A stretch of 64,000 nt of DNA from Acidilobaceae archaeon (GTDB lineage: Archaea; Thermoproteota; Thermoprotei_A; Sulfolobales; Acidilobaceae): contig JALVZQ010000003.1 of NCBI GenBank assembly GCA_027037535.1, forward strand, positions 1 through 64,000. Reading direction: 5' to 3'. A program made the translations under genes and the position numbers. The notes below the pieces were generated by a model. The model was given only the letters and a program-made list of their open reading frames with translations. It ran no database searches and was not told the DNA's origin. Every line of letters begins with the position of its first letter. The stretch's first letter is position 1. Below are positions 1 through 54,624 of the stretch, in pieces.

Positions 1-517
<517 letters not shown>

Positions 518-22949: not shown

Positions 22950-23012
22950 GTATTGTGATGAGGATCGCCGGCACCGAGTATAGATGATGAAGAGCAGGCT
23001 AAACACTGATAA
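22950..23012 (+). ncRNA. Probable C/D-box guide sRNA
   Basis: Box C GTGATGA (22955-22961) is followed by a 12-base guide and box D' CCGA (22974-22977). Box C' ATGATGA (22984-22990) is followed by 15 bases and box D CTGA (23006-23009). The C-to-D' spacing is canonical; the C'-to-D spacing is longer than the usual 10-12. The terminal stem is weak. Targets are not assigned. It lies between the protease and thiolase genes. Confidence 0.55.
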
Positions 23013-26270: not shown

Positions 26271-26343
26271 CCTAGGAGGGATGAGGACGAACCCGGAACC
26301 GAGAGATAAAAATGAGGACGGTTGGCGTCACTGACCTCCTATG
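26271..26343 (+). ncRNA. C/D-box guide sRNA
   Basis: Terminal stem TAGGAGG (26273-26279) / CCTCCTA (26335-26341) encloses box C ATGAGGA (26281-26287), an 11-base guide, box D' CCGA (26299-26302), box C' ATGAGGA (26312-26318), a 12-base guide and box D CTGA (26331-26334). Both C boxes carry U-to-G at the position that is flipped out of the kink-turn, a tolerated change. The D' guide is complementary to a tRNA T-arm type sequence (TTCCGGGTTCG). The 3' end overlaps the stop of the convergent asnS gene. Confidence 0.75.
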
Positions 26344-53355: not shown

Positions 53356-53787
53356 CTAGATAACCACTAATACGTCTGTGTGTGTTCTTTCAAGTACTTT
53401 CTTGGTTACGCTTCCGATAAATAGTCTCTCTAGCCGGCTTAGACCTCTTCTACCGACAACGATAAGATCGACGCCTTCCTGAATAGCTATATCAGCAATT
53501 TGATCGCCAGGATCTCCTATAGCGACAATTGTTTGAGCCTCTATTCCATATTCGGAAGTGATTGTTTCCTTGAGTTTCGAAAGAGCCTTTTCTGCAGCTT
53601 CTTTTAAAGGACGGGTGTCGACTACCTCCGGGACTAGTAGTTCGCCTAGGAGAACAGTTGGAGGCGGGACTATGGATACAAGCAAGAGGCTTGATCCCAT
53701 ACTCTTAGCGATTTCAGCCGCCCTTCGAGCAGCCTTGAGAGAAGCTTCAGAACCGTCGATTCCCACAAGAATTTTCTTGTATACCAT
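53356..53787 (-). CDS. Universal stress protein UspA
   Basis: A 143-residue single UspA domain: KKILVGIDGSEASLKAARRA at the N terminus and the nucleotide-binding loop VGRRGLSRLERLFIGSVT (G-x2-G-x9-G-S type), so it probably binds ATP. An upstream GTG at 53796 is in frame; ATG 53787, preceded by GTGAT, is preferred. Confidence 0.92.
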   Translation of the reverse strand: MVYKKILVGIDGSEASLKAARRAAEIAKSMGSSLLLVSIVPPPTVLLGELLVPEVVDTRPLKEAAEKALSKLKETITSEYGIEAQTIVAIGDPGDQIADIAIQEGVDLIVVGRRGLSRLERLFIGSVTKKVLERTHTDVLVVI

Positions 53788-53796
53788 AACTATCAC

Positions 53797-54018: not shown

Positions 54019-54081
54019 TGTGGGATGATGATATCGAGGTAAACCGAACCCCTGTGTGGACGTTATCCCCGTCTGACCCCT
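54019..54081 (+). ncRNA. C/D-box guide sRNA targeting the 23S peptidyl-transferase region
   Basis: Box C ATGATGA (54025-54031), a 12-base guide, D' CCGA (54044-54047), C' GTGTGGA (54054-54060, degenerate), a 12-base guide and D CTGA (54073-54076), with GGG/CCC closing the ends. The D' guide pairs with 23S bases 99-107 of this window and places C101 (E. coli C2498) opposite the fifth base before D'. The D guide pairs over 10 bases with 46-55 and places G49 (E. coli G2446) at that position. Both spacings and both matches support a real double-guide methylation sRNA. Confidence 0.85.
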
Positions 54082-54102: not shown

Positions 54103-54624
54103 ATGAAGTGCAAGGATACCGTTATCGTAGTAATATATGTGCCTTTGGAAAAAAGCCTACCAATAGTAGTCCAAGAAATAAAAAACTGTAAAGGACGTAT
54201 ACTAAGCTTAAACGAAGAAAGCAGAAGAATAGTGTTTGCCACAACTAGGAAAAGTTTGACTGGTACCATATGTAGAAGACTAATAGAAGGGCTTGGAACG
54301 GCGAGAATTGAACTATCCATCAAGTGTAAGTTATCGGGTCGTCGTAGGGCGGAAAAATTAATTAATAGTCTGAAAAAACTAGGATTTAAGAAATATACAG
54401 GTCCCCGCAGGAACCGTTACTTTGTCGGGATCCTCTGTTCTAGAATAGTAGCGTTCGAAATAGAGGTCGAGAAGTCGAGGCTACGGTTAAAACCTGGAAA
54501 ATACACTTGGGGGAAAAGGATTATTAGTCCTCCTCTTCCCTCACAGTTAGAATTAGACCTAGACGATGTAGACAAAGCCTACGAGGAATGCTTGAGAGAA
54601 CTCGCAGAGTTAACTAAAAGGTGA
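54103..54624 (+). CDS. Hypothetical protein, basic
   Basis: A 173-residue protein, basic and Cys-containing (KCKDTVIVVIYVPLEKSLPI, CKLSGRRRAEKLINSLKKLG, FKKYTGPRRNRYFVGILCSR). The basic centre might contact RNA or DNA. No family is recognised. It starts 21 bases after the guide sRNA and ends 6 bases before the MgtC-like gene, so the latter two probably form an operon. Confidence 0.72.
   Translation: MKCKDTVIVVIYVPLEKSLPIVVQEIKNCKGRILSLNEESRRIVFATTRKSLTGTICRRLIEGLGTARIELSIKCKLSGRRRAEKLINSLKKLGFKKYTGPRRNRYFVGILCSRIVAFEIEVEKSRLRLKPGKYTWGKRIISPPLPSQLELDLDDVDKAYEECLRELAELTKR

Follow-up and report, generated by a model that had tools for sequence, protein, structure and literature searches.

Does the intergenic gap between a UspA-type gene (53356–53796, minus strand) and a 173-aa ORF on the plus strand harbour the gene of a C/D box sRNA, and which rRNA nucleotides would such an RNA select for 2'-O-methylation? 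The question concerns a window of 64,000 nt, i.e. the whole stretch of DNA analysed here, the first 522 nt of which represent 23S rRNA, with the contig starting within the 23S gene. Double guides form a major part of the known archaeal repertoire: among 489 archaeal C/D sRNAs obtained by RNA-seq, Dennis 2015 (PMC4644070) classes 262 as double guides, their two targets being less than 100 nt apart, and also names helices 90–93 around the peptidyl-transferase centre as hotspots.

Anatomy and surroundings of the locus

Direct reading and script scoring of positions 54025–54076 (plus strand) revealed the architecture of a C/D box sRNA, composed of ATGATGA, 12 nt, CCGA, 13 nt, 12 nt and CTGA (Table 1). 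Boxes C (RUGAUGA) and D (CUGA) near the ends, by which archaeal C/D box sRNAs are recognized, are present as ATGATGA and CTGA. The internal D' and C' boxes with guides of 10–12 nt, likewise characteristic of the class, were identified as CCGA and GTGTGGA; they are degenerate yet aligned among homologues, and GTGATGA occupies the C' position in some relatives. The canonical C-12-D' and C'-12-D layout described in the first-pass annotation holds with respect to the length of both guides (12 nt each), whereas D' (CCGA versus the consensus CUGA) and C' are non-canonical, as is usual for internal boxes of C/D sRNAs.

Table 1 Features of the sRNA locus and its predicted targets (positions refer to the window)
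Feature	Position	Strand	Basis	Remarks
23S target of D guide	46..55	+	complementarity	predicted Gm at 49
23S target of D' guide	99..108	+	complementarity	predicted Cm at 101
Terminal stem, 5' arm GGG	54022..54024	+	sequence	can pair with CCC at 54077–54079
Box C, ATGATGA	54025..54031	+	sequence	box C-like sequence at equal spacing in homologues
D' guide, tatcgaggtaaa	54032..54043	+		12 nt; pairs with 23S positions 99–108; N+5 = C101
Box D', CCGA	54044..54047	+	sequence	CTGA, CCGA, TCGA and similar in homologues; the GA was prescribed by the search pattern
Linker	54048..54060	+		last 7 nt represent the degenerate box C'
Box C', GTGTGGA (degenerate)	54054..54060	+		TG columns invariant in the homologue alignment
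D guide, cgttatccccgt	54061..54072	+		12 nt; pairs with 23S positions 46–55; N+5 = G49
Box D, CTGA	54073..54076	+	sequence	CTGA, CCGA or CAGA in relatives
173-aa ORF	54103..54624	+		starts 26 nt past box D; in relatives, its homologues lie behind the sRNA

Over 23 homologues, the GGG/CCC terminal stem pairs in 64 % of the cells, which is modestly above controls, with slid controls being about equally good; in one homologue the arms are swapped to CCC/GGG, but the controls are weak, and so is the covariation support for this short stem. Rfam searches yielded no family above the gathering threshold for the sRNA (best, SNORD53_SNORD92 with 14.2 bits versus 46; sR60 and sR7 also scored far below threshold) and no matches in the homologue loci. 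A TATA-box scan recognized no TATA-like promoter near the sRNA gene, and the location of archaeal sRNAs close to an ORF without a promoter of their own is a usual arrangement (PMC7994747).

In many relatives, the sRNA is surrounded by counterparts of the UspA-type gene and of the small ORF and by an MgtC-family gene, which usually lies beyond the ORF. The small ORF is without a Pfam match and shares about 26–31 % identity with its homologues outside the genus; an ORF of similar size begins 5–32 nt after box D in most loci inspected. The proteins required by the class, i.e. L7Ae, Nop5 and fibrillarin, are all encoded in the genome: the fibrillarin gene (E 7e-106) directly follows that of Nop5 (E 6e-79) on contig C8, and two L7Ae-family genes are located elsewhere. 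A model search for RlmM gave no match in this genome while detecting the E. coli positive control. Together, these gene inventories are consistent with the earlier proposal that an RNA guide would do the job of RlmM in this archaeon.

Complementarity to 23S rRNA

Script scoring agrees with the pairing and the methylation positions proposed in the first-pass annotation for both guides: the D' guide forms 9 Watson-Crick pairs with 23S positions 99–107, plus a G-U pair at 108, and places C101 at N+5; the D guide forms 10 Watson-Crick pairs with positions 46–55 and places G49 at N+5. By way of the universally conserved motifs ACCUCGAUGUC and GGGGAUAAC, C101 and G49 are taken to correspond to E. 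coli C2498 and G2446, respectively, and the two targets presumably flank helix 89, that of the D' guide on its 3' side and that of the D guide on its 5' side. The duplexes have energies of −14.7 and −18.6 kcal/mol, and both guides show what characterizes the class, complementarity to rRNA over at least 9 bp and Watson-Crick pairing at N+5. The distance between the targets, earlier estimated at about 50 bases, is 52 nt from C101 to G49, so that the RNA falls among double guides as delimited in PMC4644070 (D and D' targets less than 100 nt apart in one rRNA).

About 1 % of random 12-mers from the window reach 9 Watson-Crick pairs with N+5 in the 522-nt 23S piece, and two guides landing less than 100 nt apart by chance were obtained in 2 out of 60,000 trials with the spacing given. 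The composite motif has four matches in the window (three distinct places) versus 0.6 in shuffles, the only strong twin guide being that at 54025–54076; a comparable one was absent from 40 dinucleotide shuffles of the whole window.

Two further C/D-like elements were observed on the plus strand. A candidate C/D sRNA at 26281–26334 (ATGAGGA-CCGA-ATGAGGA-CTGA) is flanked by GGAGG and CCTCC arms and shows weak guide complementarity to the rRNA of a relative (7–8 Watson-Crick pairs). The other, a motif in an intergenic gap at 22955–23009 (GTGATGA...CCGA...ATGATGA...CTGA), has its sole strong match in a relative's rRNA operon outside the mature rRNA.

Conservation among relatives

BLAST searches with a 111-base query detected homologues in the same genus, family and order, with identities (plain BLAST) of 93 % within the genus and 73–81 % farther out in the family and order. 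The sRNA is nearly identical in a relative of the same genus (L002) and was also found in a record of an Acidilobaceae archaeon (L042). A genome collection was searched with a pattern that fixed nothing but the cores of both guides, box D and the GA within D'. Exact two-guide matches were found in 23 records, 20 of which are archaeal, all of them Thermoproteota-type MAGs named Desulfurococcales, Acidilobaceae, Pyrodictiaceae, Pyrolobus, Aeropyrum and similar. The three bacterial matches (Chitinophaga, Octadecabacter and Lewinellaceae) are devoid of box anatomy and were taken as chance. In the archaeal matches, a sequence resembling box C stands at the expected distance, even though the pattern does not require one. 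Since part of the invariance is imposed by the search pattern, the BLAST matches and this unrequired box C constitute the independent evidence.

Alignment of 23 distinct homologues revealed fixed guide cores and boxes next to linkers of 11 to 29 nt and variable flanks. Position −5 of the D' guide is G in all 23, and the N+5 base is Watson-Crick paired at both sites throughout. The guide nucleotide beside D (position −1), which adjoins the box and does not have to pair, varies among T, A, G and C, and several substitutions within the D' guide lead to G-U pairs. A sequence profile derived from the alignment had matches at E 1e-7 or better in 21 out of 137 genomes of the order, some of these matches being training rows of the alignment. 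Within a 398-genome sample of the phylum, the strict pattern was confined to the order, and the reversed control gave zero matches. A branch that is Sulfolobaceae-like by sequence possesses a relaxed homologue with one mismatch beside the D' N+5 pair and with G-U or shorter D pairing. Relaxed homologues with such a mismatch are L098, L099 and L102–L104; in L098, the sRNA appears to start at the stop codon of the preceding gene. That different families of the order have retained both guides, as apparent from the 23 distinct homologues, supports the proposed guide function and is the strongest argument against a chance motif.

Four loci near MgtC genes (L015, L019, L025 and L100) have kept the D guide TTATCCCCG beside unrelated D' guides, for which no convincing rRNA target was found. 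The D half therefore looks more constrained, with the D' guide apparently exchanged or lost in some lineages, and these loci are a natural record of guide exchange.

Competing interpretations, predicted function and known systems

A point overlooked in the first-pass annotation is that the D guide also fits helix 8 of 16S rRNA in the same N+5 register, with 9–11 bp in several relatives. The source assembly (1.65 Mb, 8 contigs) yielded neither 16S nor the remainder of 23S in Rfam SSU and LSU searches, the latter having missed even the 522-nt 23S end in the window, and 16S sequences were therefore taken from relatives. The pairing comprises 11 bp in G017, G025, G051 and G012, 10 bp in G038 and G044, and 9 bp in G040, G050 and G427; the D guide of the window itself would form nine contiguous pairs with 16S of the genus-mate G004. 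Guides with two targets are described in Table 3 of PMC4644070, and the main target of the D guide might accordingly be helix 8 of 16S (in relatives, ACGGGGAUAACC), either in place of G2446 or alongside it, in which case the RNA would serve both subunits and no longer count as a pure double guide. This reading is regarded as rather improbable, considering that the pairing is broken in G011 (16S CGGGGACAAC) and G241 (16S CUGGAUAAC), whereas the guides of both still fit 23S, that in those genomes where 16S reads AGGGGG (G040, G050, G427 and G004) the −2 G that all guides share can pair with the C of 23S only, and that the partner D' guide targets 23S 50 nt away. Because G011 and G241 keep the 23S fit and the −2 G fits the 23S C everywhere, 23S G2446 is favoured as the conserved target of the D guide, with 16S as a possible second one. 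A broader picture, in which an order-wide sRNA locus resides in the leader preceding the small ORF and the MgtC gene, with the D guide (G2446) as the stable element serving both subunits via 16S helix 8 and the D' guide (C2498) swapped in some lineages, is likewise held only tentatively and judged doubtful.

The remaining alternatives differ in what they deny. Targeting of 23S is retained, and methylation considered incidental or missing at one site, if the guides act chiefly as a folding chaperone. The two 23S targets are indeed mutually complementary (CGGGG with CCUCG, −7.8 kcal/mol) and a simple fold of the segment has them paired, capping of both could prevent this mispairing, and "hold and fold" chaperoning by double guides is a published idea (PMC7994747 and PMC4644070); the Watson-Crick pair at N+5 of both sites in all 23 homologues and a segment that folds no better than shuffles render a chiefly chaperoning role unlikely. 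A guide function altogether would be dispensable for a cis-regulatory, L7Ae-bound k-turn in the 5' leader ahead of the small ORF and the MgtC gene, in favour of which are the position of the end of box D in relatives (usually 5–32 nt ahead of the ORF start) and the proposed L7Ae regulation via mRNA k-turns (PMC5539422). Conservation extends to the guide sequences, however, and is not limited to the k-turn boxes, and the position of an sRNA shortly ahead of an ORF has precedents (PMC7994747); a k-turn acting in place of the guides is thus very unlikely, while k-turn regulation could be an addition to the guide role. Finally, the boxes are short and the window by itself is no proof of expression, as would suit a chance C/D-like motif without RNA product. 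Against it stand the rarity of guide pairs with neighbouring targets even with the spacing given, the conservation of guide cores but not of linkers, and the conservation across families of the order, which leave such a coincidence hardly credible.

The locus is very probably the gene of a C/D box sRNA serving as double guide for methylation of C2498 and G2446, to judge from the sequence features above, which support both methylations as predictions. The observed anatomy, complementarity, register, conservation and presence of protein genes point to an expressed sRNA that would assemble into an RNP. The sRNA is probably processed out of the downstream transcript's leader. L7Ae would bind to the k-turn formed by C/D and to the k-loop formed by C'/D', followed by recruitment of Nop5 and fibrillarin. 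Annealing of the D' guide to the 3' side of helix 89 would allow fibrillarin to methylate the 2'-O of C2498, and annealing of the D guide to the 5' side would lead to methylation of G2446. Binding of both segments, about 50 nt apart, may in addition block mispairing while the peptidyl-transferase loop forms: since the targets are complementary and paired in the simple fold, double annealing could hold them apart during folding, in agreement with the chaperone role proposed in PMC4644070.

Side observations on rRNA genes of relatives concern 23S genes interrupted by ~700–800 bp after the equivalent of window positions 137–148 in G011 (L069/L074) and G038 (L071/L075), and 16S and 23S genes that are ~700–900 bp too long in G017 (L077), which suggests rRNA introns. 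An apparent target of 12 nt for the D' guide, located within the 16S gene region of G017, was read as lying in an insert, not in mature rRNA, and was dropped.

Compared with the archaeal double-guide C/D sRNAs in the main text of PMC4644070, the present sRNA is alike in C/D'/C'/D anatomy, 12-nt guides and N+5 rule, and in having two targets less than 100 nt apart in a known hotspot, domain V of 23S rRNA; the site pair C2498 and G2446 is not named in that main text. The arrangement is standard for archaeal C/D sRNAs (PMC4644070, PMC7994747) and no surprise, RNA-guided methylation near the peptidyl-transferase centre is expected in hyperthermophiles, and the sRNA is an additional, sound but ordinary example of a well-known RNA class. 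A literature search at the level of article texts turned up no mention of Nm at C2498 in archaea, and PMC11542601 (Table 2) gives Cm2498 for E. coli only, with no counterpart for eukaryotes or archaea. E. coli RlmM produces the same predicted modification at the same nucleotide, but is a stand-alone protein enzyme, of which no homologue was detected in this genome. The G2446 site is equivalent to Gm2815 (yeast), Gm4392 (human) and Gm2816 (Arabidopsis), as follows from the 369-nt offset between yeast Um2921 and E. coli Um2552 (PMC11542601, Table 2); these are made by eukaryotic C/D snoRNPs, the equivalence being one of the sites and not demonstrably of the guide RNAs. If the predictions are true, ribose methylation of C2498 depends on a protein enzyme in E. 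coli and on an RNA guide in these archaea, and that of G2446 on RNA guides in archaea and eukaryotes alike, which would make this locus a tidy test case for the convergent placement of ribosome modifications.
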